This document shows, piece by piece, positions 7,429-49,916 of a DNA stretch of 64,000 nt. Both the position numbers and the translations under genes were made by a program. Under the pieces are notes generated by a model. That model saw only the letters and a list, made by a program, of their open reading frames with translations, searched no databases and had not been told where the DNA came from. Numbering within the stretch: position 1 is the first letter of the stretch; every line of letters starts with the position of its first letter. Origin of the DNA: Parasphaerochaeta coccoides DSM 17374 (GTDB lineage: Bacteria > Spirochaetota > Spirochaetia > Sphaerochaetales > Sphaerochaetaceae); the NCBI RefSeq assembly GCF_000208385.1, contig NC_015436.1, positions 806,001 to 870,000 on the forward strand, in the 5' to 3' direction.

Positions 7429-8148
7429 GTGCTTGATACCACTGTCTCGTCCATCATCCCCACTCATGTTGGGTTCATCATGGACGGAAACGGAAGATGG
7501 GCACAAAAAAGAGCCCTGCCCCGCGTGGCAGGGCATCTTGAGGGACTCAAGGCTTGCCGTCGCGTCATTATTGCCGCGGCAAAACAAGGCATCCGTTATG
7601 TAACTCTTTATGTTTTCTCCACGGAGAATTGGAAGCGTCCCGCGCAGGAGGTATCTTACCTGATGGGGATGCTTGTTTCCAAGATTCATGGAGAACTGAA
7701 TTTCTACCGGACTCATGATATCCGTATTCTTGTCCGTGGAGATATATCCCAACTCCCCCAAGCCTCACGGGAAGCTCTGGAAGCGACCATACGGGAAACC
7801 GCATCGGCCAAGGGGATGACCTGCGTGCTTGCCATAAACTATGGCGGTAGAGATGAAATTGTACGTTCTATACGGGACTGCCTCAAGACAGGCAGGATTT
7901 CTTGTCCAGAGGACGTGACCGAGGAACTGATTTCCACGTCATTGACCCTGCCATCAGTGCCTGACCCGGACATCGTGGTACGTAGCGCCGGAGAAAAAAG
8001 ACTGAGTAACTTTCTCCTGTGGCAGATTGCCTACGCAGAGCTTGCGTTCTATGATAAACTATGGCCGGACTGGGATAGTGAAGACGTAAAGAAACTCTGC
8101 GATGACTTCGCCTCACGAACCCGTCGTTACGGAGGATTATCAGTATGA
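7429..8148 (+). CDS. uppS: Undecaprenyl diphosphate synthase
   Basis: cis-Prenyltransferase that adds isopentenyl units to make undecaprenyl diphosphate, the lipid carrier for peptidoglycan and surface glycans. The HVGFIMDGNGRWA signature near the start carries the catalytic Asp; FSTENW and the late block DPDIVVRSAGEKRLSNFLLWQ contain the family RTSGE-like motif (here RSAGE). The start is GTG, one base after frr. The stop overlaps cdsA by four bases, so translation is probably coupled. Confidence 0.94.
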   Translation: MLDTTVSSIIPTHVGFIMDGNGRWAQKRALPRVAGHLEGLKACRRVIIAAAKQGIRYVTLYVFSTENWKRPAQEVSYLMGMLVSKIHGELNFYRTHDIRILVRGDISQLPQASREALEATIRETASAKGMTCVLAINYGGRDEIVRSIRDCLKTGRISCPEDVTEELISTSLTLPSVPDPDIVVRSAGEKRLSNFLLWQIAYAELAFYDKLWPDWDSEDVKKLCDDFASRTRRYGGLSV

Positions 8149-32081: not shown

Positions 32082-32118
32082 GATAAACCTCCAATTTTTT
32101 TCTGAATTTAATTTCAGG

Positions 32119-32991
32119 TCATTCCTTGATTGCCCCTAAAGTCACCCCAGTTATGAAATATTTCTGTAGGAAAGGATAAACTACCAAAATCGGAACTGTA
32201 GCGAACATAATTGTCGCGGCCTTGAGGGTTTCATCAAGACCGGGTGGAGAGAATCCTTCCTGTGTGGCCGTTTCAATCGATGAAATAGCATTTATGATGT
32301 TGTAGAGCAAAAGCTGGATTGGATAATATCTCCTGTCATTCATGAACAAGAGCGCATCAGAGAATCCATTCCAGCGACCCACTGCGTAAAAGAGCGCGAG
32401 CGTGGCTATCACCGGCATGGACAGCGGCAGATATATCCTTACCAAAACGGTCACTGGGCCAGCGCCATCAATCTCCGCCGATTCCCGCAGGCTCTCCGGT
32501 ATCGTATAGAAGAAACTGCGCATGATAATCATATTGAAAACGCTCAGGCAATAGGGAATGATCAGTACAAGCGGTTTATTCAGCATCCCCAGATCCTTGA
32601 GCAACAGGTACATGGGAATAGTTCCCGCGTTGAAATACATCGTGAAAATGATGAATGTATTGATGAGCTTCCGCCCCTTGAGTTTGTCAAAGACGAGAGG
32701 ATACGCGCAGAGAGTGGTCATCACTAATGACAGGCACGTACCGATTACTGTAATGAACGCCGTCCAGACCAAGGATATTGTGTAACGGGAATCCCGAAGA
32801 ACCAGCCGGTATGCGTTCAGATTCCATCCCTTTGGCCAGAATGTGACCTCATTGCGTATCAGCGCGGTGGAAGAACTCAGGGAACGAGCGGCAATGTGCA
32901 GCATGGGGAACAGACAAAGGAATATGGTAAGGACGCATATCAGGACGAGAACGATGTTTCCTCTCTGGTGCGACCGTGATGCAACCTTCAT
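32119..32991 (-). CDS. Lpl-type ABC transporter permease (LplC/YtcP-like)
   Basis: Inner-membrane permease of 290 residues with six hydrophobic segments. The CUT1 EAA loop, ESAEIDGAGPVTVLVRIYLPLS, contacts the ATPase. The C-terminus ends FITGVTLGAIKE, a common CUT1 permease ending. It lies ten bases after the partner permease gene and 37 bases before the binding-protein gene. No ATPase gene is in the operon, so a shared MsmK/MalK-type ATPase encoded elsewhere is assumed, as is usual for CUT1 systems. Confidence 0.9.
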   Translation of the reverse strand: MKVASRSHQRGNIVLVLICVLTIFLCLFPMLHIAARSLSSSTALIRNEVTFWPKGWNLNAYRLVLRDSRYTISLVWTAFITVIGTCLSLVMTTLCAYPLVFDKLKGRKLINTFIIFTMYFNAGTIPMYLLLKDLGMLNKPLVLIIPYCLSVFNMIIMRSFFYTIPESLRESAEIDGAGPVTVLVRIYLPLSMPVIATLALFYAVGRWNGFSDALLFMNDRRYYPIQLLLYNIINAISSIETATQEGFSPPGLDETLKAATIMFATVPILVVYPFLQKYFITGVTLGAIKE

Positions 32992-33001
32992 CCTTCCCTC
33001 C

Positions 33002-33964
33002 TCATACTATGCCGCGTTCGCCGGATCTCTTTGCGGCGGCATCCGACAGCAATAGGAAAATGACACAGACAAACGACTGGAACAGTCCGACCGCTGTGGT
33101 AAGTGAGAATTGAAGACCTCGTATGCCAGCGGAGTAGACAAATGTTGAGATGACGTTCGATACATTGTTCACAAGGGCATTGCGCAAAGCAAATGGTCGG
33201 TCAAACTCACTGCCAAGGATGCGGCCCAGATTCAAAATCAACAGGACGACAATGGTATTCATGATGCCCGGAATCGTGATGTACCGTATTTTTTGCATTC
33301 TTCCCGCGCCATCTATGTCCGCAGCCTCATACAGGGTGGGATTTATGCCTGTGATGGCGGCCAGATATATGATTGAGTTCCAGCCGACGCTTTGCCAGAC
33401 TCCAAGCAGTATGTATGTGGCTACCCATGATTTCGACTCATTGAGGAATGGGATGGGACCTATCCCAATCTTCCCTAGCCAGACATTGACAAGCCCGGTA
33501 TTGGGGGCGAAAAGCTGGAGCGCAAGTCCTGCGATGATAATCCAAGACAGGAAATGAGGCATGTATGCCACTGTCTGGGTAAAACGTTTGAGTCGTCTGA
33601 ACGGCATTTCATTGAGAATCAGGGCAAAGATGATAGGAGCCGGAAACCCAATGACCAAATCCAGCAGGTTGAGCATGACAGTATTGCGCAGGGCATAAAG
33701 GAAGTCCCGGTTCTGGAAAGCCTGGATAAAATACTGCCACCCTTTATTATCGGCAAGCGACATCTTCCATGGGCTAAGTACGATACTGTATTTCTTAAAG
33801 GCAATCTGGATATACGTCATGGGGACGTATTTGAATATGGTAAAATATGCAAGAGGGAGAGCAAGCATCGCATACAAGGTCCAGTAACGGCTCATGTATG
33901 TACGGAACCGCCTGCCCCGTCCACCAATCTGGTGATGTCCGTGGGGCATAGGAATCTTTTTCAC
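33002..33964 (-). CDS. Lpl-type ABC transporter permease (LplB-like)
   Basis: Permease of 320 residues with about six membrane segments; the EAA loop reads YEAADIDGAGRMQKIRYITIPG. The start is GTG at 33964, since GGAGGAG lies five bases before it; the upstream in-frame codon at 34012 gives a non-family N-terminus. It is first in the minus-strand aldouronate operon and is divergent from the AraR-type regulator gene. Confidence 0.9.
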   Translation of the reverse strand: MKKIPMPHGHHQIGGRGRRFRTYMSRYWTLYAMLALPLAYFTIFKYVPMTYIQIAFKKYSIVLSPWKMSLADNKGWQYFIQAFQNRDFLYALRNTVMLNLLDLVIGFPAPIIFALILNEMPFRRLKRFTQTVAYMPHFLSWIIIAGLALQLFAPNTGLVNVWLGKIGIGPIPFLNESKSWVATYILLGVWQSVGWNSIIYLAAITGINPTLYEAADIDGAGRMQKIRYITIPGIMNTIVVLLILNLGRILGSEFDRPFALRNALVNNVSNVISTFVYSAGIRGLQFSLTTAVGLFQSFVCVIFLLLSDAAAKRSGERGIV

Positions 33965-34042
33965 CTTTTCTCCTCCGAACTCATGACGTTGTCCGATGGT
34001 CACGACACACAACCTGTACTATCTTTTCAAAAGTCATACTCT

Positions 34043-34073
34043 CAATACAAGACAAATCATGTGGATTGTATTG
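34043..34073. promoter_or_regulatory. Inverted repeat in the permease-operon leader
   Basis: CAATACAA (34043-34050) and TTGTATTG (34066-34073) are perfect 8-base arms 15 bases apart, about 80 bases upstream of the first permease gene. The spacing of two helical turns suits a dimeric regulator; binding by the neighbouring regulator is a guess. Confidence 0.4.
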
Positions 34074-34204
34074 ACCTTCTTTAAGAATCTTATAAGAAAC
34101 CAACAATGTCAATGAAAATTATTTTTCTGATGATTCATATAACTTTTTTCTTTTTAATGAAAAACCTCAAAATCATTGACGAGAATATTTCCATAATTTT
34201 TAGA

Positions 34205-34222
34205 AATTTGTCATTACAAATT
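34205..34222. promoter_or_regulatory. AraR-like operator
   Basis: AATTTGT-CATT-ACAAATT is a 7-bp perfect inverted repeat matching the arms of the Bacillus AraR operator (ATTTGT-N4-ACAAAT). It sits ten bases upstream of the -35 of the regulator's predicted promoter, in the intergenic region shared with the divergent transporter operon. Confidence 0.65.
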
Positions 34223-34231
34223 AGTTTATGC

Positions 34232-34260
34232 TTGTATTCTATGACAATCCACGGTATATA
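34232..34260 (+). promoter_or_regulatory. Predicted promoter of the AraR-type regulator gene
   Basis: TTGTAT (34232-34237), 17 bases, TATATA (34255-34260). Transcription would start near 34267, which favours the downstream ATG at 34287 as the regulator's start. Confidence 0.5.
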
Positions 34261-34286
34261 TTGAAAACAAGATGGAAGACATACAT

Positions 34287-35387
34287 ATGGACAACGGAGC
34301 CGCCAGTACCCTGAAATACATGGACATCGTGAACTGGGCAAATATTCAGATTGCCTCCGGAGTATTCCAGCCAGGAGAAAAACTCCTTACCGAAGCCAAG
34401 CTGGGGAGCAAGTTTTCATGCTCGCGCCAGACAGTCCGCCGTGCGCTGGAAATTCTTGAACAGAATGGGAAAGTCACAAGTATCCAAGGCAGCGGAACCT
34501 ATGTCACGGAAAACGTAGCACTGCCGGGACAAGGCACGGACAGGAACAAAACGCCTTCTTATACCATAGGCACGGTCTTTGCGTTCATGGACAACTACAT
34601 CTTTCCCAATATAATGAAAGGCATAGAAGGAGTTTTCACAAAAAAAGGCTATGCCGTACAGCTGGCATTGACAGACAATTCGGTGTCAAAAGAAGCCAGT
34701 GCTCTCCGTTTCATGCTGGCTCGTCCTCTTGATGGCTTGATTGTGGAGCCGACAAGAAGTGCCCTCCCCTGTACGAATCTCAATTTTTATCAGACTGCCA
34801 TGGAACGAGGCATTCCTGTGGTATTCATTGATTCATATTATCCTGAACTGGCAATTCCCTATGTAGCACTTGATGACGCAAGAGCCGGATATATCGCGAC
34901 ACGCCATCTGCTCGATATGGGACACCGGAATATTTCCGGCATATTCCCTTACAGCAACAGACAGGGACATCTCCGGTATCAAGGATATGTCAAAGCACTC
35001 ACGGAACGAGGCATCCCCGTGAAGGAAAGCCACATTACCTGGTATTCCCGCGAAACCATGAACCAATCGCTTCATAGCCCCCTGATGCTTGACATCCTGA
35101 CAGAATGTACTGCCGTATTATGCTTCAATGATTGGATTGCCGTACAAATCAAGGATGTCCTCCGCAAAAACAACAAGAGTATTCCCGACGATGTTTCGGT
35201 CATAGGCATCGACGATTCCGAGCTTGCCCGACATACAGGGCTGACCAGTATCATCCACCCCGCATGGCAGCTTGGAGAAACTGCCGCAAGTCTTCTGTTG
35301 GGCAAAATCAACGGGAACAAGGTTTCCAGCGTCCTGTTGCCTCCCGCGCTGGTAGAACGTTCCAGCGTAAAAAAAATCGTGACATGA
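34287..35387 (+). CDS. AraR-type GntR/LacI-hybrid transcriptional regulator
   Basis: Regulator of 366 residues with a GntR winged helix at the N-terminus (KYMDIVNWANIQIASGVFQPGEKLLTEAKL... with SRQTVRRALEILEQNG) and a LacI-type sugar-binding domain from about residue 90. This domain order is that of AraR, which responds to arabinose; the ligand here is unproven. The ATG at 34287 has GGAAG upstream; one at 34272 would leave almost no leader. An AraR-like palindrome lies just upstream, suggesting autoregulation and control of the divergent operon. Its stop overlaps the GH2 start (ATGA). Confidence 0.88.
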   Translation: MDNGAASTLKYMDIVNWANIQIASGVFQPGEKLLTEAKLGSKFSCSRQTVRRALEILEQNGKVTSIQGSGTYVTENVALPGQGTDRNKTPSYTIGTVFAFMDNYIFPNIMKGIEGVFTKKGYAVQLALTDNSVSKEASALRFMLARPLDGLIVEPTRSALPCTNLNFYQTAMERGIPVVFIDSYYPELAIPYVALDDARAGYIATRHLLDMGHRNISGIFPYSNRQGHLRYQGYVKALTERGIPVKESHITWYSRETMNQSLHSPLMLDILTECTAVLCFNDWIAVQIKDVLRKNNKSIPDDVSVIGIDDSELARHTGLTSIIHPAWQLGETAASLLLGKINGNKVSSVLLPPALVERSSVKKIVT

Positions 35388-38300
35388 TGAAGAAACTGCT
35401 GAACGGCGGCTGGGAGTTCGCGCTGGGCACTCCCGAGCATTTCTCCGCTGTGCGTCTGCCACATGACTGGTTGATTGCTAGCGAAGCGAACAGCACGAGG
35501 ATGTGCGAAGCTCTCCGGAGAGGAGTAGAGGCGCAAGCCGAGACTCTGATGATATCAAATCCATCCAACCTGTACGCGCCGGGTATCGGCTGGTACCGCC
35601 GTACGTTGGATTCCAGCATGTTTCTGCATGGTCAGCGCGTCTTCCTTCGTTTTGACGGAGTCATGGGTGAAAGCACCTTGTTCGTCAACGGGAAAGAAAT
35701 CGGATGCTGGAAATACGGATATACAGCGTTCGAGTTCGATATCACCGACTCTCTCAACTTCTCAGGAAACACCATCCTTCTGAAAGTCGAATACAACTCC
35801 CCATGCAGCCGCTGGTATACAGGAGCCGGTATTTACCGGGATGTCTGCCTGATAGTGAAAAATCCTTGCCACTTTGTTTCCGATGGCATCTATGTCACCA
35901 CCTTCCTCACGGAAGGACAATGGACATTTGATGTCACTGCCGATGTCGTCACTGACTCCCGTCCCTATGAAATCACCCATGACTTGCTCGATGGCGGTAA
36001 CCGCATTGAAGAATGGGACATCGACCATCCTCGTCTGTATACGCTCCGCTCGACTTTGCGAGTCGCAGGAGAAATCATGGACAGCGTGGATACCCGCATC
36101 GGTTTCCGCACGATTGAATGTACCCCTGATAGAGGCTTTTTCCTCAATGGACGGCATCTTAAGCTCCGGGGAGTATGTCTGCATCATGACTTGGGACTCT
36201 TGGGAGCTGCCGTACATACTGACGCCATCCGCAGGCAGCTTGCAATCTTCAAAGCCATGGGAGCCAACGCAATCCGTACCGCCCACAACCCTCCTGCCTC
36301 CATCTTCATGAGTATTGCCGATGAAATGGGATTCCTGGTCCTGTCTGAAATCTCCGACGTCTGGCATCACGCAAAGACACCTTATGACTATGCCCGTCAT
36401 TTTGATGAATGGATAGAGAAAGATGTGGCGTCATGGATACGGAGGGACCGCAACCATCCGTCAGTAATTATGTGGAGCCTGGGCAATGAAATTCCGGATA
36501 CCCACAAGGATCCTGAGAACGCAACACAAACCCTGCGGCGTTTGATGTCCCTGGTCGAACAACATGATCCCCGGCGGCATGCACGTGTGACCCTGTGCTC
36601 GAATTACATGCCTTGGGCAAACACACAGGAATGTGCTGACATCATCAAGCTCATCGGTTACAACTATGCGGAATACCTGTATGCCGCCCATCATGCCCTG
36701 CATCCTGACTGGATTATTTACGGCAGCGAGACCTGTTCGACCGTCCAGAGCCGGGGCATCTACCATTTCCCGCTTGAAGCATCCGTCATGGCAGATGATG
36801 ACCTACAATGCTCCGCCCTTGGAAATAGCCGTACAAGCTGGGGCGCGGAAAACGTTGAATCCTGCATCAAGGCTGATGATGAAGCATTGTTTTCCTTAGG
36901 ACAATTCGTCTGGGCAGGACAGGACTATCTGGGTGAGCCTACCCCTTATCACACGAAGAACTCCTATTTGGGTCATGTCGATACAGCGGGCTTCCCGAAG
37001 GACTCATATTTTATTTTCCAGGCCGCATGGACAGACTGGCGGGAAGCACCCATGATTCATCTCTGGCCATACTGGGATTTCTCTCCCGGACAGATGGTGG
37101 ATGTACGTGTCTGCTCCAACGCTCCCACCGTCGAGCTGTTCCTTGACGGGACAAGCCTGGGAAAAAGAAATCTTTCTCCAGACATGACCGTGACAGATAT
37201 CACTACGACATGGAAAATATCGTATCGTCCGGGAACCTTGAAAGCCGTAGCATATGGATCTTCCGGAGAAATCATCGCTGAAAAAACAAGAAGCTCCTTT
37301 GAGGATGCTCATATTATAAAACTTAATTCTTTACAAATAACAGAATTATCATTTATCACCATCACTGCGCTTGATTCCCGTGGCAACTTGGTTGAGAACG
37401 CCAACAGAAGAATCAATGTTTTGGTGAAAGATGGCGAACTGCTAGGCCTTGACAATGGAGATTCTACCGACTATGAACCCTATGGCTCCACAAGCCGACG
37501 GATGTTCAACGGCAAACTCCTGGCCATCGTAAGGGGGAGCAATCCAAGAATCGAGGCATCCTTCGACGACAAGGATATTCCTGTGAGAAAAATCGAGCTT
37601 GTGCAGGACGGCTGGCATGTCGAGGCACAGACATATCCACCTGACGCAACACATACTGACCTGCACTGGCGGGTGACCGATGAAAAAGGAATAGATACTC
37701 CCCTCGTGCAATTTCACGTAGCCAATGACCAAAGGAGCGTGGAAGTGGTTCCAAAAGGCGATGGTACTGTATATATCCGCTGCGGGACAAAAAACGGAAA
37801 AGGACATCTTGACTTGTATGCGCAGCGGGAAATGACAATCACAGGTAAGGGGAAACCCTTTTTGGATCCTTATTCCTATGTCTCCGGCGGTCTGTACAGT
37901 ACGTGCAACAGAACATTGACCAATGGCAACGAACGGGGAATCGCTACGGCACGGGACGGGGAAAGTCACGTAGTCTTTGCGGACCTTGACTTTGGCTCTT
38001 ATGGCTCTAATGAAATATCCCTGGACTTATTTCCGCTGGATGCCGAACCATTCACGTTTTCTTTGTGGGACGACATGCCTGGGAATGGCGGCATGAAGAT
38101 TTGCGACCTCACCTATGACAAAGGTTCCATCTGGAACACCTATCAGAGAACCACCTATCAGCTACCCCGCCGACTTTCGGGGATTGTATCCTTCTGTCTG
38201 GTATTTCGACAGAAGGTACACATAAAGGGTTTTGTCTTCACTCGTCTGGAAAAGGCTTTTCAGCGTCTGAACGCAGGTGAATGTGACAGTATTTCCGGCG

Positions 38301-38617
38301 ATACATATGTTGTCCGAAACGGGTGCGTGCAGGAGATAGGGAATAATGTGTCCCTCGTCTTCAAGGACATGGACTTTGGCGTGGACGGAGCAATGCAGCT
38401 TGAACTTTGCTGGAAATCACGGATTCCCCACAATTCAGTCAGGGTAACATGGGAGGGCAAAAGCCGCCACGCCACCATGGTCGAGCTTTCAGGTTCAGAA
38501 AGCTACATACAGGAGATTTTTCCCTTAGGAGAAACAATCAGAGGCAGAAAAACAATAATTCTCGAATTCCTGCCCGGCTGTATCATTGATGTAGCCTGGT
38601 TGAGATTCTTGCCGTGA
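35384..38617 (+). CDS. GH2-family glycosidase with C-terminal CBM-like modules
   Basis: Cytoplasmic glycosidase of 1077 residues. Order: GH2 sugar-binding jelly roll (about 1-170), immunoglobulin-like domain, TIM barrel with the acid/base motif WSLGNEI and the nucleophile in YGSETCS, then beta-rich domains. The final 250 residues hold two similar stretches, each with D-x-DFG (DLDFGSYGSNEI; KDMDFGVDGAMQ), resembling family 6-like carbohydrate-binding modules. GH2 covers beta-galactosidase, glucuronidase, mannosidase and others; side-chain removal from xylan fragments fits the setting but is not shown. No signal peptide. The start overlaps the regulator stop, so the pair is coupled. Confidence 0.85.
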   Translation: MMKKLLNGGWEFALGTPEHFSAVRLPHDWLIASEANSTRMCEALRRGVEAQAETLMISNPSNLYAPGIGWYRRTLDSSMFLHGQRVFLRFDGVMGESTLFVNGKEIGCWKYGYTAFEFDITDSLNFSGNTILLKVEYNSPCSRWYTGAGIYRDVCLIVKNPCHFVSDGIYVTTFLTEGQWTFDVTADVVTDSRPYEITHDLLDGGNRIEEWDIDHPRLYTLRSTLRVAGEIMDSVDTRIGFRTIECTPDRGFFLNGRHLKLRGVCLHHDLGLLGAAVHTDAIRRQLAIFKAMGANAIRTAHNPPASIFMSIADEMGFLVLSEISDVWHHAKTPYDYARHFDEWIEKDVASWIRRDRNHPSVIMWSLGNEIPDTHKDPENATQTLRRLMSLVEQHDPRRHARVTLCSNYMPWANTQECADIIKLIGYNYAEYLYAAHHALHPDWIIYGSETCSTVQSRGIYHFPLEASVMADDDLQCSALGNSRTSWGAENVESCIKADDEALFSLGQFVWAGQDYLGEPTPYHTKNSYLGHVDTAGFPKDSYFIFQAAWTDWREAPMIHLWPYWDFSPGQMVDVRVCSNAPTVELFLDGTSLGKRNLSPDMTVTDITTTWKISYRPGTLKAVAYGSSGEIIAEKTRSSFEDAHIIKLNSLQITELSFITITALDSRGNLVENANRRINVLVKDGELLGLDNGDSTDYEPYGSTSRRMFNGKLLAIVRGSNPRIEASFDDKDIPVRKIELVQDGWHVEAQTYPPDATHTDLHWRVTDEKGIDTPLVQFHVANDQRSVEVVPKGDGTVYIRCGTKNGKGHLDLYAQREMTITGKGKPFLDPYSYVSGGLYSTCNRTLTNGNERGIATARDGESHVVFADLDFGSYGSNEISLDLFPLDAEPFTFSLWDDMPGNGGMKICDLTYDKGSIWNTYQRTTYQLPRRLSGIVSFCLVFRQKVHIKGFVFTRLEKAFQRLNAGECDSISGDTYVVRNGCVQEIGNNVSLVFKDMDFGVDGAMQLELCWKSRIPHNSVRVTWEGKSRHATMVELSGSESYIQEIFPLGETIRGRKTIILEFLPGCIIDVAWLRFLP

Positions 38618-39338: not shown

Positions 39339-41468
39339 TCAGTCCGTCCGGAGATATTCCAGTTCAACCGGCTTGATTCCACAGAGAGCGATGCTACGGG
39401 AATCCGGCTGTGAAAAACCTACATGGAACAGGAATCGCCTTCCGCCAGGAATCCTCCTGCCTCCCTCGTCCACGACCGTGAACGCCTCTGGTTCAATGAC
39501 AATTGTCCTTGACGTTTTTTCTCCTGGCGCAAGTGTAATTCTCCTGAAGCCTGCGAGAGCATGATTTATGACCGCCAGCGGAGAATCCATGTCCTTGACA
39601 TAAACTTGGACAACTTCTTCCGTCGTCCGCCCGCCATCGTTGCGGATATCCACCGTTATCTCCACGCCGCCATCCGCCGTTTTCCCTGAGATCCCCGCAC
39701 TGACAATGGAACATGGAGAATACGTCAGGCCATATCCGAACGGATACAGGGCATTTCCTTTCATGTAGCGGTATGTCCGACCCGCCATGCTGTAATCCTC
39801 AAAGGCAGGAAGTTCGTCAGCCGACGCATAGAAGGTTACAGGCAACTTTCCCGCCGGAGCCCGTCTGCCGAACAGGACATCGGCGACCGCCTTGCCTCCC
39901 ATGGCTCCCGGATACCAAATTTGCAGGATGGCCTTGAGGTTTTCATCATTTTCCCTTCCTCCGAGAGTAAGCGCACTCCCTGATGCAAGAAGAAGTATGA
40001 CTGGCTTGCCAACCGTGAGCATCGTATCAAGCAGAAGCTGCTGGCGTCCGGGCAAGGACAGGTTTGGCTTGTCTCCCGAACCAAAACCGACCTCGACATC
40101 CCCCTCCTCTCCTTCCAAGGTTGCATCCAGACCAAGGCAGAGGACGACGACATCAGCATGTTGGGCAGCGGACACGGCCTCGGCCAGCCTGTCATTCCTA
40201 CCTGACAGCGATGAATGGAAGTTCTTGTATAAATGGCATCCTTCGGAATACCACACGCGGACGGAATCACCCACCAAATCCTGTATTCCCTCAAGGACAG
40301 TCACGTAACGGGATGCCGTCCCATTGTAGTTACCTTCAAGCATCTTCCTGCTGTTCGCATTTGGCCCAATGACGGCAATTGATGAGATTTTTTCCATCTC
40401 AAGAGGCAGTAGACCATCATTTTTCAACAGGACAAAAGAACGGGAGGCCGCTTCAACAGCAAGCTGATGATGTTCAGGAGTATCGTTTTCTTCATATCCA
40501 ATGGAATCATATGGACAGTCATCGGCCATCATGCCCATCATGATCCGTGTCGTGAATAGCCTCTCGACCGCCTCGGTTATCTCATCTTCACTAATCAACC
40601 CTTCGTCAACGGAAGAACGCAGATGTCGGGCAATCTTTCCCGCGCAAAGATTACACCCCGCTTTCAGAGCCACGGCCATGGTGTGGGCTTCGTCAGCGAC
40701 ATAATGATGATGCTTGAAAATATCTTCAAGAGCCTCATAGTCAGAAACGACGTGGCCCTCAAAACCCCATTCACTCCTGAGGATATCACTGAGCAGTTCA
40801 TGGCTGGCACAGGCAGGAACACCATTGACCCTGTTGTACGCTCCCATGACAATCTCAACCTGGGCTTCCTTCACAGCCGCCTTAAAAGCTGACAGATATG
40901 TCTCATGAAGATCCTTCTGGCTAACGCGGGCATCAAATTCATGACGGAGAGCCTCCGGCCCGCTATGTACAGCAAAATGTTTTGCGCATGCCGCGGCTTT
41001 CAAATACTTTCCGTCCCCTTGGATGCCACGGATGAACGCGACGGCGAGACGCGCTGTCAGGTAGGGATCCTCCCCGTATGTTTCCTGTCCACGCCCCCAG
41101 CGCGGATCACGGAAGATATTGACGTTCGGCGACCAGAAGGTAAGCCCCTTGTAGATGTCCCGGTCGCCGTGGCGGACAGCTTCATTGTACTTTGCCCGAC
41201 CCTCGGTCGAGATGACAGCTCCTATCCGTTCCATCATGTCGGAATCAAACATCGCGGCAAGACCAATGGCCTGGGGAAAAACCGTCGCTATTCCGGCTCG
41301 CGCTACACCGTGCAGAGCCTCATTCCACCAATTGTATTCCGGGATATCCAGCCGGGGAATGGCCGATGCCCTGTAGTCTATCTGGGAAATCTTCTCATCT
41401 AATGTCATCCGGGAAACAATTCTCCGGGCAATCTTCCAGGCATCAACCCGGAACATTCTCTTTTCCAT
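39339..41468 (-). CDS. GH3-family beta-glycosidase (beta-xylosidase/glucosidase)
   Basis: Enzyme of 709 residues: N-terminal TIM barrel (WWNEALHGVARAG; KHFAVHSGPEALRH), nucleophile Asp in HVVSDYEAL, alpha/beta sandwich with IAVIGPNA and the KPVILLLASGSALTL block, and a C-terminal fibronectin III-like domain. The RHEFDARVSQKDLHETYLSAF region and overall layout resemble XylA/BxlA-type beta-xylosidases more than Bgl-type enzymes; beta-glucosidase activity is not excluded. No signal peptide. Last gene of the second xylo-oligosaccharide operon. Confidence 0.9.
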   Translation of the reverse strand: MEKRMFRVDAWKIARRIVSRMTLDEKISQIDYRASAIPRLDIPEYNWWNEALHGVARAGIATVFPQAIGLAAMFDSDMMERIGAVISTEGRAKYNEAVRHGDRDIYKGLTFWSPNVNIFRDPRWGRGQETYGEDPYLTARLAVAFIRGIQGDGKYLKAAACAKHFAVHSGPEALRHEFDARVSQKDLHETYLSAFKAAVKEAQVEIVMGAYNRVNGVPACASHELLSDILRSEWGFEGHVVSDYEALEDIFKHHHYVADEAHTMAVALKAGCNLCAGKIARHLRSSVDEGLISEDEITEAVERLFTTRIMMGMMADDCPYDSIGYEENDTPEHHQLAVEAASRSFVLLKNDGLLPLEMEKISSIAVIGPNANSRKMLEGNYNGTASRYVTVLEGIQDLVGDSVRVWYSEGCHLYKNFHSSLSGRNDRLAEAVSAAQHADVVVLCLGLDATLEGEEGDVEVGFGSGDKPNLSLPGRQQLLLDTMLTVGKPVILLLASGSALTLGGRENDENLKAILQIWYPGAMGGKAVADVLFGRRAPAGKLPVTFYASADELPAFEDYSMAGRTYRYMKGNALYPFGYGLTYSPCSIVSAGISGKTADGGVEITVDIRNDGGRTTEEVVQVYVKDMDSPLAVINHALAGFRRITLAPGEKTSRTIVIEPEAFTVVDEGGRRIPGGRRFLFHVGFSQPDSRSIALCGIKPVELEYLRTD

Positions 41469-41559: not shown

Positions 41560-42408
41560 TCATTCCTTCAAAGCTCCCAGTGCAACACCGGATATGATGT
41601 ACTTTGACAATAGGAAGTAAATGATGAACAAAGGCAGTACCGTCAGGGAAAGTCCCAGATACACCGAGCCAAATTCCGTCTTGTAGATATCACCCCTGAG
41701 AAGACTCACCATGATTGGCATGGTGTACTTCGTCTTGTCCGTAAGCAGGATTAATGGAAGGAAAAGATTGTTCCAACTGGCCACGAAGGAGAAGATTGCC
41801 TGGGTAGCGAGCGCCGGTATCATAATTGGCAGGACTATCCTGTTGAAGATATAGAACTCGCCCGCCCCGTCAATCCTGGCGGAGCTTACTATGTCAAGCG
41901 ACAAAGCTCCCATGAGGTACTGACGCATGAAAAAGACCATTGCGGGTGAAGCTATCGCCGGCAGTATCAGAGGCAAGAAATTATTGGTCAGTCGCAAGCT
42001 GTACATGAACTGATAGAATCCTATGCTCGATACCTGCGCGGGAATCATCAGCACACACATGATGACCGTAAAGAACGGCTGCCTCATCTTCCAGCTATAA
42101 GCGACAAGAGCGTATGCGGTAAGGGATGAGAAATATACGGAAAAGAAAGTAGCTCCGGCGGAGATGGTCAATGAATTCAGAAACCCGACCAGTGGATTGA
42201 AACTTTTGCCGAGCAATATCTTGAGATTGCTGAAAAAAAACCGGGAAGGCAATAATGCCACAGAGCTTTGCTGTATTTCATACGTGCTTCGCGTAGCATT
42301 CATGAACATCACCCAGAAGGGGAATATGCTTAGCACTGCCAGGAAGAAGCAGGCAATGTATATTACTGTCTTGGTCGTGATACGGGACATTCTTAGTGAC
42401 TTGCTCAT
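41560..42408 (-). CDS. CUT1 sugar ABC transporter permease (MalG-like)
   Basis: Permease of 282 residues with six membrane segments; EAA loop in LDIVSSARIDGAGEFYIFNRIVLPIM. The ending YIISGVALGALKE is typical. The ATG overlaps the upstream permease stop by four bases. A gap of about 90 bases follows before the GH3 gene. Substrate is likely xylo-oligosaccharide by position. Confidence 0.92.
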   Translation of the reverse strand: MSKSLRMSRITTKTVIYIACFFLAVLSIFPFWVMFMNATRSTYEIQQSSVALLPSRFFFSNLKILLGKSFNPLVGFLNSLTISAGATFFSVYFSSLTAYALVAYSWKMRQPFFTVIMCVLMIPAQVSSIGFYQFMYSLRLTNNFLPLILPAIASPAMVFFMRQYLMGALSLDIVSSARIDGAGEFYIFNRIVLPIMIPALATQAIFSFVASWNNLFLPLILLTDKTKYTMPIMVSLLRGDIYKTEFGSVYLGLSLTVLPLFIIYFLLSKYIISGVALGALKE

Positions 42409-43373
42409 ACCTCAACCTCCCGTATGGTTTTCATGCTTCTCATCATGGCCTTCTTCTCCTTCCTGCGCCGGGCTGCATCCTTGTCCCTCATTATAAGGAA
42501 AAGGATACCGGACAGAATCATGATAAGGATGAACATAATCATGCTGGCAGCGGAGGCTCTGTTGTACAGGTAACTTCCACTGAAAGCCTGATTGTAGATG
42601 AAGACACTTGTGGTGAGCGTTGCGTTGTCAGGCCCTCCAAGGAGGAAAAGCCTGGGAATATCGAACATCTGCATGCCCCCGATCAGACTGGTGACCAAGG
42701 TATAAAGCAGAATCGTGCGCAGGTTAGGAAGTGTTATGCGGAAGAAAATCTGAGGCGCTGAAGCCCCGTCGATTTCCGCGGCTTCGAACAATGTGGGATT
42801 GATGCCCAGCACTCCCGCTATGAGTATTATCATCGTATTACCGTACCACATCCAGAACTGGATGAATCCGACGATGCCGCGGGCAGTCCATTTTTGGACA
42901 AGGAAATATATCGGACTGTCACTCAGTCCCAGCATCATAAGCAGGTCATTGACCGGTCCTTTGGGATAACCGAACAGGGAATTGAAAAGAATTGCTATCG
43001 TAGCTGCCGTGATGATGTTCGGCATATAGAACAAGACCTTGAACGCACCCTGCCCTCTCACCTTGAGGCTGTTGTTTGTGAACCATGCGGTGAGCAAAAG
43101 CGCAAGCAGTATCTGTGGAATGAAATTCATAATCCAGATAAGAAAGGTGTTGGATAAGGATTTCCTGAAAGATGGATTGGCAAGAATCAACTTGAAATTC
43201 TGAAACGGGTCTTCAAGAAAGGAAAACGCCGTCCGGCCTATGCCCCGGAGATCAGTGAAGCCGATGATGATAGTATAAATAAGTGGATACAGGGAAAAAA
43301 GAAGAAATATAAGTACGAATGGGATGGAAAAATAATAACCATACTTTGCATAATTGATGCCTTTTTGCCTCAT
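42405..43373 (-). CDS. CUT1 sugar ABC transporter permease (MalF-like)
   Basis: Permease of 322 residues with six or more membrane segments; EAA loop FEAAEIDGASAPQIFFRITLPNL. GGGAGGTGAG lies four bases before the ATG at 43373, so the in-frame upstream ATG at 43415 is rejected. Overlaps the next permease by four bases; no ATPase in the operon. Confidence 0.92.
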   Translation of the reverse strand: MRQKGINYAKYGYYFSIPFVLIFLLFSLYPLIYTIIIGFTDLRGIGRTAFSFLEDPFQNFKLILANPSFRKSLSNTFLIWIMNFIPQILLALLLTAWFTNNSLKVRGQGAFKVLFYMPNIITAATIAILFNSLFGYPKGPVNDLLMMLGLSDSPIYFLVQKWTARGIVGFIQFWMWYGNTMIILIAGVLGINPTLFEAAEIDGASAPQIFFRITLPNLRTILLYTLVTSLIGGMQMFDIPRLFLLGGPDNATLTTSVFIYNQAFSGSYLYNRASAASMIMFILIMILSGILFLIMRDKDAARRRKEKKAMMRSMKTIREVEV

Positions 43374-43450
43374 GGCCCTCACCTCCCGGTATACAGAAGC
43401 CATGCCGTCGCTCATACCGACGGCATGTTCTGTCCCTCCATGCGGACGTA

Positions 43451-44803
43451 CTAGTTGACTATGATGTCAAGATTGTCCGCGACCTGCTGCTTGAAGTCTG
43501 CAATCGCCTTGGCGCGACTCTTGTTGCCCGCGGTATATTCACGGACCTGTCCACGCCAGTAATTGTTGATTGTCTCATCATATTGCGTCAGGTTCTTGCC
43601 TGTGGCGAATGTCCCTGCGGGAATAAATACATCAAACATGTTCTGACCGCCCAGGAACGGGAGTGCGCCGTCAGCCTTCTTCATCACAGTACCGGAAGCA
43701 ACCGTATCCTTGGTTCCGCCAGGTCCTGCGAGAGTGCCGGTTGCCCAGTAATACTGGAGACCGGTATTGGAGCTGTCAAGAGTGATCCATTCTATGATGT
43801 CCCCGACCGCGTCCTTGACCTTGCTGTTCTTATTGGCAAGAATCCACGTACCACCCCAGAAGAATCCGACAGGAGGCTCACATACCGCCCAATCCCCATA
43901 CGTCCCTTCACCAGGCTTCGAACCACCGGAGTTACCGGCCATCACATAGTTAATCAGCCATGCCGGGCCGAAGAAGCCCAGAACCTTCTGTTGTCCAGCG
44001 TCCTTCATGTCCGCGAACCATGCGTCCGTCCAGTCTTGGGAATCACTGTGCCAGCCATTGTCCTTAAGAGCCTTGGAGATATCAAGGAACTGCTCGCGCA
44101 GAGGATCGATGTACAGCTTGCCATCGACAATCCAGCCTTTCTCTGAACTGTTCTCAACCGCGTGCCAGACATCACCATCTCCAGATACAATACCATAACC
44201 CTTTGCCTTGAGTTCCGCGGCAGCTTTGAGGAACTGATCCCAACCTGGGCCGACCTTTGTCTTGATTACGGACGGATCATCCGTACCCCAGACTGCTTTC
44301 GCTATGGAACGACGATAGATGAATGCACCGCCTGTCGCCTGATAGCCCAAAGCCACTAGTTGTCCATTTGGATTAGTGCCGATATCGACAGTATATTGGG
44401 CGATATCGGATTCTTTCAGCAGGCGGTCAACATCAATGCCGAGATCCTTGTAAGAGGCCGCCAAGTGAGCCGCATCACCTTTCGTATACTTCAACACGAA
44501 AGCAGCCTCAGCCGTATAGATATCGGGAGCATCGGCGCTGCCGCCGGTCAAAGCCATGTCCAAGGCCGGCTGGTAGGCACCGTCCGTCGTGGCGATAATC
44601 GTTGTTTTAATCTCATACGGGAACTCAGGATGAAGCGCAAGGTACTTGTCCAGCATCTTGGGAACTTCATCAGTAAAACTCCACAGATTGATCACCTGTT
44701 TTCCTGGAGCCGCGCTTTTCTCAGCAGATCCACCCGCAAACACTTGGATACTGATGCAAGCCATCAGCAGCAAGCATACGAAAAAAACCACTTTTTTCTT
44801 CAT
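43451..44803 (-). CDS. CUT1 sugar ABC transporter binding protein
   Basis: Family 1 binding protein of 450 residues. The signal ends IQVFAGGSAEK and carries no lipobox Cys at the expected place. The mature region has VINLWSFTDEVPKMLDKY and the PDIYTAEAAFV block. Proximity to GH52 and GH3 genes and to two permeases points to xylobiose or longer xylo-oligosaccharides as ligand. A hairpin lies between this gene and GH52, which may raise its message level. Confidence 0.9.
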   Translation of the reverse strand: MKKKVVFFVCLLLMACISIQVFAGGSAEKSAAPGKQVINLWSFTDEVPKMLDKYLALHPEFPYEIKTTIIATTDGAYQPALDMALTGGSADAPDIYTAEAAFVLKYTKGDAAHLAASYKDLGIDVDRLLKESDIAQYTVDIGTNPNGQLVALGYQATGGAFIYRRSIAKAVWGTDDPSVIKTKVGPGWDQFLKAAAELKAKGYGIVSGDGDVWHAVENSSEKGWIVDGKLYIDPLREQFLDISKALKDNGWHSDSQDWTDAWFADMKDAGQQKVLGFFGPAWLINYVMAGNSGGSKPGEGTYGDWAVCEPPVGFFWGGTWILANKNSKVKDAVGDIIEWITLDSSNTGLQYYWATGTLAGPGGTKDTVASGTVMKKADGALPFLGGQNMFDVFIPAGTFATGKNLTQYDETINNYWRGQVREYTAGNKSRAKAIADFKQQVADNLDIIVN

Positions 44804-44872: not shown

Positions 44873-47008
44873 CTATCTTTCATGATGCTTCGGCATCTTG
44901 AGACCTGTAAACAAACCACACGGGACCAACCACAGGATTGATGTCACCAAACGTGGATAGAAACGTGAGCCCATATCCCTGCCTGTGGAAGAATCCACTT
45001 GGTCGGTCATACCGGTGCCTGCGCTTCCTGTGAACTGCCATTTCCAATGATGCTCGTCCCGGCGAATCAGCTCCTGGGGCAGTTCCAGTATCTGTTCCGC
45101 AATAAACTGATTGAGGAAAATCTTGCTCAACCATGTATTGCGACTTGTAGATGAAAGCTTCCATCCTCCGCTGATGGAATCCAGACAGATGCCAGGTTTC
45201 AGGACGGTTAGCAGATGGGTTCTCAGGAGACTGATAAATTCCCCGTATGGCCCGTCAGGAAGGACAACGGGAGACGCCCCGGTAAAGAATGGGTAAATCA
45301 TGCCTTCGACTGCCGGTATGATACGCGATCGGTTGCCTCCCTCGAAAACAGCTGGAATGAACTTCTCATCCTCGATGAAACATGCGCTGACCGTCCGTGA
45401 AATCTTCTTGGCGGCATCCTGCGCCCGTAGGGAATTTTCCTTGTCCCCGGCACGTTCAAAAAATGATGAAATGCTGACGAACGCGCCCCAGGCTTTCACT
45501 GCAAGATAAAGATTGTTACGCGCCTGACCCAGACTTATATCAAGGGAGTCATAGGTCGTGATTTCCGCGCCACCTTCACAGAGATCGCTGTCCACGTCCA
45601 TGATGCCATCTCCATTTGCATCCCGTGCAATCAAGGAATCCATGGCGAGTATCAGAACCTTCTTATTGTCCGCCGCCCATACGGTGTCATTGGCGTTATA
45701 GGAATAGAGACAAGCCGTCAGCATCCAGTTGAGAGTTTCCTCATAGCTCATGTAGCTGAAACAATCGACAAGACCGGACAGTTCATAAACGGACCTTCCC
45801 TGGGGAGTGAAGCAGTCAGCTCCCCCCTGGTCATGGGAGAACGCAATGCCATACGCATCCCTGTACAGCGACTGTCGCTGGAGAAAGTCCAGCTCATTGC
45901 GCACGGTCCACGGAGAGAAAATCAGCTCATAGAATGCCTGGTCAACGGTAAGATCGAGCGTGTTCATCATCTGGTACTCGCCTTCATTGACAACGAATAC
46001 CGGTGCTCCCGTGTCATCAAGAAGCAGCTCGGTATTGGCACAATATGCATGCGTCGAGGCCGCAACGATGATTTTCTGCATCTCGGTCAAAGGGGAAGAA
46101 TCAAGCAACTCATCCATGGCGACTGAACGGGCAAGCATCTGTATCTTATTTTCAAGCGCAAATTCAAGAACTTCCTCAAGGTCTTTGAAAAGAGCGGTAT
46201 AATATCTGCGCATCGGCAATCCTGTGGTCACTACGCCATCCTCATAGACGCCAAGAGCAATGGTGAATGTCCGTTTTACCCCCGGAGGGACATGGAATCT
46301 GAGCCCTCCTTCCCGCGCAAGCCGCCTGAGCTGAAGGCTTTCATTGAAAGCAGCATCAACGGATTTCCAGTCCATGATTTCAACGACATTATCTTCTGGA
46401 AAAGTGGCGAAACCATATTTCACGCCCGCTGCCATCCCGGACAGACGTCCATCAGTCGCATCGGAAAGCGGTCTGCGGATGCCCTGCAAACCGAAATACC
46501 CCACTGCCTCATCTTGTCCATCTGTATTGTCCAGACAAAACTCCACCAGCAAAGCCGGACAAGCGGAAAGACGAAAGTCCTCCATGGATGTCGTGGCAGG
46601 ATCTGGCACTGGCCCGAAAAAAGAACGGATGGAGACTGTCAGGATACCTGCATGCCATGTCTCACCGCCTAAAGTGGTGGTTCTTTCGACCTGCTCCATG
46701 GGAAATGTCGTGAACCTGCGCATGCGCATTTGCTTCGGGGTGGATTCATCAGTGTCGTGGGTACTGTCATCCTTGTAGGCAGTGCTGTCCAGGCCCTCGT
46801 TTCTTTCCGTCACGAATGGCAGCAGCACAGGTTCCTCATTGCCAAGCTTATAGCCCATGTACACATTCCGTCCGGGCGGCTGCACATCTCCCGTCACAAA
46901 ACCGCCCCCATTGTTTGCGCGTCCGATGACAAAGGAAGAATAGGCTCCCCACATTCCATGCTGGGCATAATGATCTTTAGCGTTTTTCTGTTGCACACAT
47001 GTATCCAT
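44873..47008 (-). CDS. GH52 beta-xylosidase
   Basis: Cytoplasmic retaining beta-xylosidase of 711 residues. Strong GH52 blocks: VFVVNEGEYQMMNTLDLTVDQ (nucleophile Glu in NEGE, residues 342-344) and GGAEITTYDSLDISLGQARNNLYLA (general acid Asp in the TYDSLD part). The N-terminal YSSFVIGRANNGGGF and C-terminal WKLSSTSRNTWLSKIFLNQFIAEQIL also fit Geobacillus enzymes. Before the acid loop there is an EF-hand-like DANGDGIMDVDSD insertion, not typical of the enzymes I know. No signal peptide. It lies 105 bases from the response-regulator gene, which may be an operon internal promoter region. Confidence 0.94.
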   Translation of the reverse strand: MDTCVQQKNAKDHYAQHGMWGAYSSFVIGRANNGGGFVTGDVQPPGRNVYMGYKLGNEEPVLLPFVTERNEGLDSTAYKDDSTHDTDESTPKQMRMRRFTTFPMEQVERTTTLGGETWHAGILTVSIRSFFGPVPDPATTSMEDFRLSACPALLVEFCLDNTDGQDEAVGYFGLQGIRRPLSDATDGRLSGMAAGVKYGFATFPEDNVVEIMDWKSVDAAFNESLQLRRLAREGGLRFHVPPGVKRTFTIALGVYEDGVVTTGLPMRRYYTALFKDLEEVLEFALENKIQMLARSVAMDELLDSSPLTEMQKIIVAASTHAYCANTELLLDDTGAPVFVVNEGEYQMMNTLDLTVDQAFYELIFSPWTVRNELDFLQRQSLYRDAYGIAFSHDQGGADCFTPQGRSVYELSGLVDCFSYMSYEETLNWMLTACLYSYNANDTVWAADNKKVLILAMDSLIARDANGDGIMDVDSDLCEGGAEITTYDSLDISLGQARNNLYLAVKAWGAFVSISSFFERAGDKENSLRAQDAAKKISRTVSACFIEDEKFIPAVFEGGNRSRIIPAVEGMIYPFFTGASPVVLPDGPYGEFISLLRTHLLTVLKPGICLDSISGGWKLSSTSRNTWLSKIFLNQFIAEQILELPQELIRRDEHHWKWQFTGSAGTGMTDQVDSSTGRDMGSRFYPRLVTSILWLVPCGLFTGLKMPKHHER

Positions 47009-47113
47009 CTCGTTGTCCTCGCATACACACGATACTATTGTTCGTATATGCCCGGAACCGGAGATATTACCGTTTTTTCATTAGGTGATTTCCCCTAGGG
47101 ATGGATGAATCAT

Positions 47114-47755
47114 TCAGATATTTCCGGCAATCCAGTCGAACGCAAGCCGGCGCAGTTCTCCTGCCGTAAGGAGTCCCAGACGGTTTTTCATCCTGTCCTG
47201 GTGGGCATTGATGGTCTTTACGGAGAGATTCAGCCGGGTAGCGATATCCGAAGCGCCGTAGCCTTTGCCGATGAGGGAAAAGATTTCCAATTCACGATTG
47301 GTGAGCGCAATCCGGGGATCTATGGAAGATCTCAGTCCGGATGAAATATTCTCTACGAGACGATTGCGAAGATTGTCACTGATTGCCAGCCGTCCCGCAA
47401 GGACATCGGTTATGGCATCAATAAGCCTTTCAGGTGTTTCATGTTTCATGACATATCCCTTCGCGCCCGAACGGACAGCCCGTTCACCATATAAATTTTC
47501 ATCATGCATCGAAAGAACAAGTATCTTGAGCGCAGGCCAGGAAGTCCTGGCGCTGGAAACGAGGTCAAGTCCGCTTCCGTTCTGTAGGGAAATGTCGATT
47601 ATTGCCAGATATGGGAGGGTCTTCGCAATCATATCCGTTGCTTCCGCCACGGTGGAAGATTCCCCGACACATTCCAGGCCCAGCCTCTGCTCTATGAGAA
47701 GGCTGACCCCTTTCCTGTACAATGGATGGTCATCTACAATTATGAACTTTTTCAT
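47114..47755 (-). CDS. NarL/FixJ-family response regulator
   Basis: Receiver plus LuxR-type HTH, 213 residues. The receiver has the acidic pair VDDHP, phospho-acceptor Asp54 in AIIDISLQNG, Ser/Thr in LVLSMHDE and Lys in GYVMKHET. The HTH runs from about 150 (LTNRELEIFSLIGKGYGASDIATRLNLSVKTINAHQDRMKNRLG). It lies 13 bases after the sensor kinase gene; the two form a likely pair. Probable targets are the downstream GH52/transport/GH3 genes (inference). Confidence 0.93.
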   Translation of the reverse strand: MKKFIIVDDHPLYRKGVSLLIEQRLGLECVGESSTVAEATDMIAKTLPYLAIIDISLQNGSGLDLVSSARTSWPALKILVLSMHDENLYGERAVRSGAKGYVMKHETPERLIDAITDVLAGRLAISDNLRNRLVENISSGLRSSIDPRIALTNRELEIFSLIGKGYGASDIATRLNLSVKTINAHQDRMKNRLGLLTAGELRRLAFDWIAGNI

Positions 47756-47768
47756 TTTCTCCCACCCC

Positions 47769-49916
47769 CTATCTTGATACCCTGCAAGATATCGATGTGC
47801 CTTCCGGCGATGTCTGTATCCTTAGCAGGCCACCTATCATGTTCGCCCGGTACTTAAGTATCTTGAGTCCCATTCCCTGCCCGCTCTCCTGTTCAGAGGC
47901 TTCCATGCCGTGACCATCATCGGAAATCTCGACAGTCACCATCCCATGATCCATATACAGTCCTATCTTCACGTTCTCAGCATGAGCATGCCGGATGGCA
48001 TTCGACAGGGCTTCCTGGATGATGCGGAACAACTGGAGAGCTTTTTCAGGACGACGGACAAGGAAATCCTCTTGCACATCCACATGGATGGACGGTGAGC
48101 CTTCCCGTGACGAACGGGACGCGGCAAGCCGTCTTACGGCTGTGGCCAGTCCGTTGTCTTCCAGCTCTACGGGATACAGGTTCCGTGCAATCTTCTTGGC
48201 ATTCTTCGCCGTGTTCATCGCGGTTTCCGAAATCTGACGCGCTCGAATCCTTTCCTGCTTCAATCCTTTTTTTCCCAAGGAATCTTCAAGCGTCGCGGCA
48301 AGGATTCCGATTCCCGCTATATCCTGGCACAACTCATCATGGATATCCTGCCCGATACGGGTCATGATGTCGTTGGACACATCAAGTATCTCGCGTTCCA
48401 AATTCTTGCGTTGGGCTATTTCTACTTTCAACTTGTTGTTCGCATAGGACAATTCGGCAGTCCTGCGCCCGACTTCTTTAGCCAGTGCTTTTTCCCGATC
48501 CCTTTCACTTGCCATGACACGGGCACCCTTGAGGCTGATTGTCAGCAAGTCACGGAGCGTGGCATAGACATGACGATCCTGTGCTCCAGTGGAACACACA
48601 AGGTATCCTATCGGTTCTTCTCCGAATTGCAAAGGTTCGCACACGAAAGAAGCAAAGTCATCAGGCAATCCCCCCGGAAGCATTTCCTGCGTCCGGAACC
48701 TGAACCCATAGGGAGCAAGAATGCGGGTTTCGTTCCCTTGAGTCGTCATCAAAAGCTCTGACCATGTGGGATCTTTCGTGTCAAACATGACGACCGAACA
48801 AAAACATATACCCAACTGGCGGATACCCCGTGCCAGTTCCTTAAGTATCTTTTCCATGCTGAACGAACTGATGAGCGCGGACTGCACATCCTGCAACAAA
48901 GCGTTGCGCGTCTCGCCCGCCACCCTCCGGGACATCTGATGACGCAGTTGGTTTTCCAGCGTGAAAGAATGTACCTTCCCTGAATCTCTCCCCTTCGGCT
49001 GCATGCATCCGCAGGAAGTGCGCAAGACAAATGTCGAGACAAGCTGACGGTCATCTTCTTCGGCAGGTTCGAGAATACCAAGGATGCGGGCTAGTTCCCT
49101 GACAGCTCTCTCCCCCAGTTCTCCTGCCGGTTGATGGATCGTTGTCAATGGGGGCAGGGAATACAAGCTGTCCTCTATGTCGTCGAATCCGGTCACGGAA
49201 ACTTGTCCTGGGACTGCCAGTCCTTGCTCCGTCAACGCCCTGATGCTTCCCATTGCCATTTGGTCGTTTGCTGCCACGACAGCATCCCATTCCCAGCGTT
49301 TCTCAACAAGAGAACGCACTATGGCATAGGCTTTGTCTTCAAGGAAATCACCGTGCAGGACAAGTGGCCGCTGTCCATCAGGAAGGAGCATAGCGTACGT
49401 ATCCAGAAATTCCTTGAGTCTCTGTTCGCTTTCAGGATGTCCGAGAGGTCCTGCCAGAAAGAGAAAACGCTTGCGCTGATGCCCTTCAATCAGATGACGC
49501 GTCACGACAGCGATCCCCCCGGACGTATCGGCGCATATGCCGGGAATCCCTGGGAATCTGACTCCTACAGTCACCGTCGGGATATCATGGAATGCCGTCA
49601 TATATCCGGATATCCTGTCGTGTGAAAAAATCGAACCCATGGTATTGGTCATGATGAGCAAGCCATCCAGTTCCGTGCGTGCGGCTAAAGCAAAAGCAGT
49701 GTCATCGAGAGAGCCTGCCTTGTTCTGTGTCTCAAGGTTTGCCCCAACATAGAAAACATTGGACATGCCCAGCTTCTCCGCCTCACGAGCCGCACCATTC
49801 CAAACGGCATATTGGTATGATTCATCAAACTGGGATGCAAGGAAACCAAGACGAAGTTTGCTTTTTTTCTTTTTCTGATTCTTGACCATCCTGAGAATTA
49901 TACATGGTTTATCCAT
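47769..49916 (-). CDS. Soluble LacI-domain hybrid sensor histidine kinase
   Basis: Protein of 715 residues with no signal peptide and no visible membrane segment. Residues about 20-310 are a LacI-type periplasmic-binding-like domain (LRLGFLASQFDESY; LDGLLIM; VVAANDQMAMGS; VTGFDDIEDS), but the DNA-binding helix-turn-helix is missing. A GAF-like region (about 340-480), a coiled coil and a NarX/DegS-type kinase follow: HisKA_3 His in DIHDELCQD (about 526), N-box EALSNAIRHAH, and GQGMGLKIL. It would sense a cytoplasmic sugar and phosphorylate the neighbouring NarL-type regulator. The start may be at 49889 instead. Confidence 0.88.
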   Translation of the reverse strand: MDKPCIILRMVKNQKKKKSKLRLGFLASQFDESYQYAVWNGAAREAEKLGMSNVFYVGANLETQNKAGSLDDTAFALAARTELDGLLIMTNTMGSIFSHDRISGYMTAFHDIPTVTVGVRFPGIPGICADTSGGIAVVTRHLIEGHQRKRFLFLAGPLGHPESEQRLKEFLDTYAMLLPDGQRPLVLHGDFLEDKAYAIVRSLVEKRWEWDAVVAANDQMAMGSIRALTEQGLAVPGQVSVTGFDDIEDSLYSLPPLTTIHQPAGELGERAVRELARILGILEPAEEDDRQLVSTFVLRTSCGCMQPKGRDSGKVHSFTLENQLRHQMSRRVAGETRNALLQDVQSALISSFSMEKILKELARGIRQLGICFCSVVMFDTKDPTWSELLMTTQGNETRILAPYGFRFRTQEMLPGGLPDDFASFVCEPLQFGEEPIGYLVCSTGAQDRHVYATLRDLLTISLKGARVMASERDREKALAKEVGRRTAELSYANNKLKVEIAQRKNLEREILDVSNDIMTRIGQDIHDELCQDIAGIGILAATLEDSLGKKGLKQERIRARQISETAMNTAKNAKKIARNLYPVELEDNGLATAVRRLAASRSSREGSPSIHVDVQEDFLVRRPEKALQLFRIIQEALSNAIRHAHAENVKIGLYMDHGMVTVEISDDGHGMEASEQESGQGMGLKILKYRANMIGGLLRIQTSPEGTSISCRVSR

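Follow-up and report, generated by a model that had tools for sequence, protein, structure and literature searches.

Two-component systems are usually thought to read the outside of the cell and LacI proteins the inside, and sugar-sensing kinases are usually membrane-bound. Repressors of the LacI/GalR family (LacI, RbsR, PurR, CelR, CcpA) are cytoplasmic and have a full effector core with its sugar-contact positions. Kinases of the NarX/DesK type (HisKA_3, HPK7; the pairs NarX-NarL, UhpB-UhpA and MctS-MctR) combine HisKA_3 and HATPase_c domains with an HD-x3-Q motif and a NarL-type partner, and the classical ones are membrane sensors. In Geobacillus, the xylose two-component system XynDCX senses the extracellular sugar via a separate binding protein and a membrane kinase. 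The XylR protein of E. coli joins a LacI-like core to an AraC DNA-binding domain; it is a cytosolic one-component regulator of xylose genes and works without phosphotransfer. The xylose sensor XylFII-LytS likewise relies on a separate binding protein and a membrane kinase to detect the sugar outside (PMC10384115, citing Li et al. 2017). In a 2022 review of c-di-GMP sensing, the LacI-type domain figures as a putative sensor with sugars as possible ligands (PMC8846402).

The window analysed here is a stretch of 64,000 nucleotides (C1:806001-870000) in a genome consisting of one contig, C1, of 2,227,296 bases. The organism, Parasphaerochaeta coccoides, is a termite-gut spirochete of the family Sphaerochaetaceae. 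The window encodes a kinase with the effector core of the LacI/GalR repressors but without their helix-turn-helix (HTH) or hinge helix, and its output is a histidine kinase. It has the domains, motif and type of partner of NarX/DesK-type kinases but, unlike the classical ones, it is soluble and has a LacI core as its sensor. With XylFII-LytS and XynDCX it shares a type-I binding-protein fold in a two-component system, but its fold is part of the cytosolic kinase itself, and hydropathy revealed no transmembrane segment such as theirs in the kinase or its clade. Like XylR, the proposed system would use a cytosolic LacI-like core for xylose genes, but with phosphotransfer. Other LacI-core kinases of Spirochaetota and Chloroflexota share the core and the kinase, and those of Chloroflexota also have GAF domains; they differ in clade and neighbours, and the Chloroflexota ones use HisKA, not HisKA_3. 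The open-access literature searched yielded no account of a cytosolic LacI-core kinase for xylan. Each domain is already known, and what is new is the xylan-linked, GH52-adjoining cytosolic LacI-core kinase. Since LacI-core kinases are widespread in Spirochaetota, it is a variant within a known class.

Results

Organisation of the locus

The genes of the locus follow one another on the minus strand in the order adk, kinase, regulator, GH52, solute-binding protein (SBP), two permeases and GH3 (table 1). The adk gene, assigned from its sequence, is separated from the kinase by 54 bp, and the kinase from the regulator by 13 bp. The regulator matches Response_reg and GerE above the cut-off, and its receiver residues D8, D9, D54, S82 and K104 are invariant. 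Because both glycosidases lack a signal peptide and the SBP has one, cleavage of the oligosaccharides is expected in the cytoplasm, in the same compartment as the sensor.

Table 1. Features of the kinase locus and of related loci (positions are those of the window unless a locus is named).
Position	Strand	Feature	Basis
47769..49916	-	Soluble sensor histidine kinase, LacI-core/GAF/HisKA_3/HATPase_c, 715 aa	Pfam, AlphaFold model, hydropathy
49005..49859	-	LacI repressor core, residues 20-304, no HTH	Pfam, structure match
48483..48959	-	GAF fold and flanking helices, residues 320-478, no Pfam match	Predicted structure
48165..48362	-	HisKA_3 dimerisation/phosphotransfer helices, residues 519-584; H526 in RIGQDIHDELCQ	Pfam
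47778..48041	-	HATPase_c ATP-binding domain, residues 626-713	Pfam
47114..47755	-	NarL/FixJ-type response regulator, receiver (D54, K104) and LuxR/GerE HTH, 213 aa	Pfam Response_reg and GerE
47082..47097	-	Primary dyad of the probable operator, TAGGGGAAATCACCTA, 73 bp ahead of GH52	Comparative motif
47058..47073	-	Weak second dyad ACGGTAATATCTCCGG, 24 bp on	Offset common to loci
44873..47008	-	GH52 beta-xylosidase, no signal peptide	PF03512 1.9e-131, full-length profile
43451..44803	-	CUT1-type SBP with signal peptide, itself without a Pfam match	73-79% identity to SBPs adjoining other LacI-kinase clade
42405..43415	-	CUT1 permease	Pfam BPD_transp_1
41560..42408	-	CUT1 permease	Pfam BPD_transp_1
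39339..41468	-	GH3 glycosidase, beta-xylosidase-like, no signal peptide	Pfam
L041 11722-12147; L042 11649-12095; L043 ~1680-2096		Receiver-only regulators beside orthologous kinase	

LacI-type cores also occur in other contexts. A GntR-like regulator with such a core (34272-35387) adjoins a large GH2-like gene in the window (30438-38617), and a second SBP/permease set lies beside it (30438-34012). Elsewhere, a protein of 1104 residues combines a LacI core, about 700 uncharacterised residues and an AraC-type HTH (L054 9745-13059; in the genome studied here, C1 ~61.7-65.1 kb), and proteins that match the LacI core with open frames near this length are common in the order.

A soluble kinase with a LacI core

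The kinase matches Peripla_BP_3 (4.7e-25), Peripla_BP_1, HisKA_3 and HATPase_c, the last two above the Pfam cut-off. In the AlphaFold model of the kinase (mean pLDDT 78.5), residues 20-304 matched the Lac repressor with a Z score of 26.4 over 267 residues, and CcpA was among the closest folds. The ribose-binding protein scored 24.0, and LacI repressors ranked above binding proteins. Pfam detected no LacI-type HTH ahead of the core, which is preceded by just some 20 residues. Folded alone, residues 320-478 reached a pLDDT of 87 and matched GAF domains (Foldseek E ~1e-4). A helix of about 100 residues (449-549) then runs into the kinase core, which retains an intact HDxxxQ motif and ATP-site residues and in which H526, N639, D666, G668 and G670 are invariant.

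We found no membrane segment in the kinase: its highest hydropathy over 19 residues is 1.14, with no window above 1.6, a value exceeded by none of the members of its clade, whereas a permease used as control reached 2.8. There is no signal peptide either; the N-terminus is rich in KNQKKKKSK, and a stop 18 codons upstream closes the reading frame. The initial annotation, which had described a LacI-domain kinase devoid of DNA-binding helices, signal peptide and membrane segment, joined to a GAF-like region and HisKA_3 and paired with a NarL-type regulator directly upstream of the GH52/CUT1/GH3 genes, is thus upheld by the coordinates, Pfam matches, structure comparisons and hydropathy.

The ligand pocket of the core is also conserved. 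The LacI pocket positions R197, N246, D274 and Q291 correspond to R166, N217, D245 and Q262 of the kinase. This mapping used the E. coli LacI sequence, and the same motifs aligned to solved LacI-family chains. R166 and D245 are identical in all aligned LacI-kinases, and N217 and Q262 in nearly all. In a set of six GH52-linked kinases, invariant residues occupy 12 of the 22 pocket positions, compared with 56 of the 257 in the rest of the domain (p=0.0015). The GAF region is much more divergent (17-27% identity beyond the closest relative) and has few invariant positions. The sensor is probably functional, as judged from its sequence, because the pocket positions, H526, the HDxxxQ motif, the ATP site and the receiver residues of the regulator are all intact.

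Association with GH52

We analysed the co-occurrence of the kinase with GH52 in 139 genomes of the order. GH52 is present in four, and in all four the kinase lies directly upstream (Fisher p=2e-6, relatedness ignored). The kinases of the three other GH52 genomes are 54-61% identical to that of the window, and seven genomes of the order hold the kinase in all (in one, G111, it is split across two contigs). The order kinase-regulator-GH52 recurs in Spirochaetales bacterium SZUA-377 and, in another family, in the genomes G332 and G393. The orthologous kinases form one clade (support 100/100), on which the GH52 label requires two changes against 5.7 in shuffles, and GH52 comes straight after kinase and regulator in all lineages but a single nested group of three species. 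The linkage and the tree led us to reject a chance neighbourhood. Co-occurrence with GH52 had been set beforehand as a test of the proposal that the system reads an intracellular and not an external sugar. The orthologues passed it within the order and outside, being linked to GH52 and not scattered, and the kinase showed neither membrane anchor nor Sec signal.

Two other genomes of the phylum (G489, G149) have a full-length GH52 without such a kinase; these enzymes are distant (33-37% identical). In one genome (G081) the GH52 gene (L039 ~5864-7941) is apparently frameshifted and holds a stop, possibly through assembly error, and the kinase, regulator and operator look intact.

A candidate operator

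By reading the intergenic regions we recognised a dyad, TAGG-N8-CCTA, with an A/T-rich centre. With its 4-8-4 layout it shares the geometry of the NarL 7-2-7 site. Of 22 LacI-kinase loci, 15 carry a perfect copy immediately after the regulator gene; shuffles predict 0.06, which is not an independent test because the motif and the regions tested came from the same, related loci. All seven GH52-linked loci have the dyad: four perfect, two with one mismatch and one (G095) with a 9-base spacer. At 24 bp from it a weaker second dyad scores a mean of 4.0 matches out of 8; the mean for all offsets is 1.96.

Independent tests of the motif came from control loci and from sites in trans. Of the GH52 loci that lack a LacI-kinase, two hold no copy and a third has its sole copy ~7.7 kb from GH52. 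The regulon scans were pattern searches. Perfect sites occur at a background of about 0.3 per 20 kb, and the genome showed no overall enrichment, with six perfect sites, several inside genes. A simple promoter scan was of little use (18 sites found, 9 expected). The site of the window is one of two perfect matches to TAGGNNAAANNNCCTA genome-wide. A tandem pair with the 24-bp offset (C1:777473-777512; one copy perfect, the other with a mismatch) lies ~150 bp before a distant CUT1/GH43 operon of the same genome (permease, permease, SBP, a 706-aa protein and GH43). In relatives, where an A/T-rich centre was the criterion for choosing sites and several other sites turned out to be intragenic, one copy lies ~30 bp before a GH3 gene clustered with GH67, UxuA and an SBP (G332), and others lie before CUT1 SBPs (~57 bp in G332, ~107 bp in G393). 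We treated a perfect match inside a permease gene (C1:445288) as chance. Three further sites were not counted as targets: those at 754348 and 1587589 fall within open frames, and that at 2119605 lies in or next to a doubtful frame. TAGG-N8-CCTA is, by comparative evidence, the probable operator of the regulator, keeping in mind that a conserved site is not by itself proof of binding by this regulator.

Species without GH52

Three species that have the kinase and no GH52 (G090, G091, G101) encode a receiver-only regulator, and TAGG-N8-CCTA is missing near it. Target gene, operator and DNA-binding domain are thus absent together. The truncated regulators and one internal stop codon in the kinase of G090 had led us to suspect regulatory decay. 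We dropped this as a general account, since the kinase in these species is under purifying selection (dN/dS ~0.07-0.1, dS near saturation). Its role is hence not solely the control of GH52, and the pattern suggests that the output has become a different, non-transcriptional one.

Other LacI-core kinases

Many genomes of the same family encode a second LacI-kinase, ~31% identical to the first and followed by a regulator, an SBP, two permeases and GH3, without GH52. The transporter proteins of the window (41560-44803) share 68-79% identity with their counterparts in this second system. The locus thus resembles a hybrid, with the kinase, regulator and GH52 of one system and the transporter of the other. 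The CUT1 transporter differs between GH52 loci, and the imported sugar may therefore differ as well. More generally, cytosolic LacI-core kinases are widespread in Spirochaetota, where they adjoin varied genes. The initial annotation had considered a cytoplasmic LacI sensor dedicated to xylo-oligosaccharides unusual. Dedication to xylan does fit this one clade, but the design itself is less rare than supposed.

In one spirochete genus (L175-L179), a LacI-kinase is divergent from its regulator and lies near a nucleoside phosphorylase gene, which suggests that its ligand may be a nucleoside or ribose. In a Brevinematales genome, a LacI core is fused to the chemoreceptor signalling domain MCPsignal (L073 9929-12154), possibly making a soluble sugar chemoreceptor.

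Discussion

Our computations show the architecture and solubility of the kinase, its gene linkage, its conserved pocket, the conserved site and the co-absence of this site with the DNA-binding domain. We consider it likely that the locus encodes a cytoplasmic two-component system for xylan-derived sugars, whose ligand (a xylo-oligosaccharide, given the neighbouring genes), direction of signalling and activating effect we infer. The CUT1 transporter would bring in short xylo-oligosaccharides, to be cut in the cytosol by GH52 and GH3. One of the sugars in this pool, an oligosaccharide or xylose, would bind the LacI core of the dimeric kinase, and the signal would pass through the GAF domain and the long coiled coil to the HisKA_3 core, shifting the balance between kinase and phosphatase. 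Once phosphorylated, the regulator would bind the dyads, arranged in tandem at a 24-bp offset ahead of GH52 and of further operons for xylo-oligosaccharides; most likely it would thereby activate GH52 and the dispersed CUT1/glycosidase operons.

The identity of the sugar is where this account has its most serious competitor. The LacI core might read another plant sugar (arabinose, an arabino-oligosaccharide or a pentose in general), with GH52 part of a broader hemicellulose regulon. Such a reading would accommodate the related LacI-kinases that adjoin CUT1/GH3 genes without GH52 or a nucleoside phosphorylase, the varying transporter of the GH52 loci and the sites in trans before GH43 and GH67/UxuA genes. 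We nevertheless think it rather unlikely, because GH52 is the most constant neighbour of the clade and the genes that follow the sites in trans are likewise xylan genes. The sign of the control and the owner of the site raise a separate question. Motif copies do occur inside genes, and the regulator could repress through the dyad, or the dyad could belong to another factor. This seems improbable given that the site is found beside the regulator gene in several families, is not seen there in the species whose regulator lost the HTH, and is absent from two of the GH52 loci without a LacI-kinase, the third having its copy far off.

Two further alternatives concern the sensor itself. The presence of a GAF fold and the likeness to CcpA would fit a LacI core that is merely structural, serving dimerisation, or that binds a protein co-effector as CcpA does, with the GAF domain as the real sensor. 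The sugar-pocket positions are however conserved above the rest of the LacI domain while the GAF region has diverged far more, which makes this option very doubtful. The kinase could also be envisaged as a conventional extracytoplasmic sensor of sugar with an overlooked signal peptide or membrane segment, because the fold is common to periplasmic binding proteins, as the match to the ribose-binding protein illustrates. We rejected this reading as having next to no probability: kinase and clade lack a hydrophobic segment, the upstream stop closes the frame, and LacI repressors outrank binding proteins in the fold comparison.

Whether the proposed xylo-oligosaccharide system is one case of a general scheme is a matter on which we are evenly divided. 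Cytosolic LacI-core kinases could be a large undescribed spirochete class of two-component systems for intracellular sugars that share one operator logic, tandem TAGG-N8-CCTA dyads 24 bp apart. The clade described here would be its xylan branch; in the species without GH52 it would have been rewired, with a regulator reduced to the receiver and an output that is no longer transcriptional. As a biosensor part, a soluble kinase gated by sugar could be of use, and the predicted operator makes the regulon directly testable. For the cell, a repressor core that drives a phosphorelay would allow signal amplification and the control in trans of dispersed operons from one internal sugar pool.
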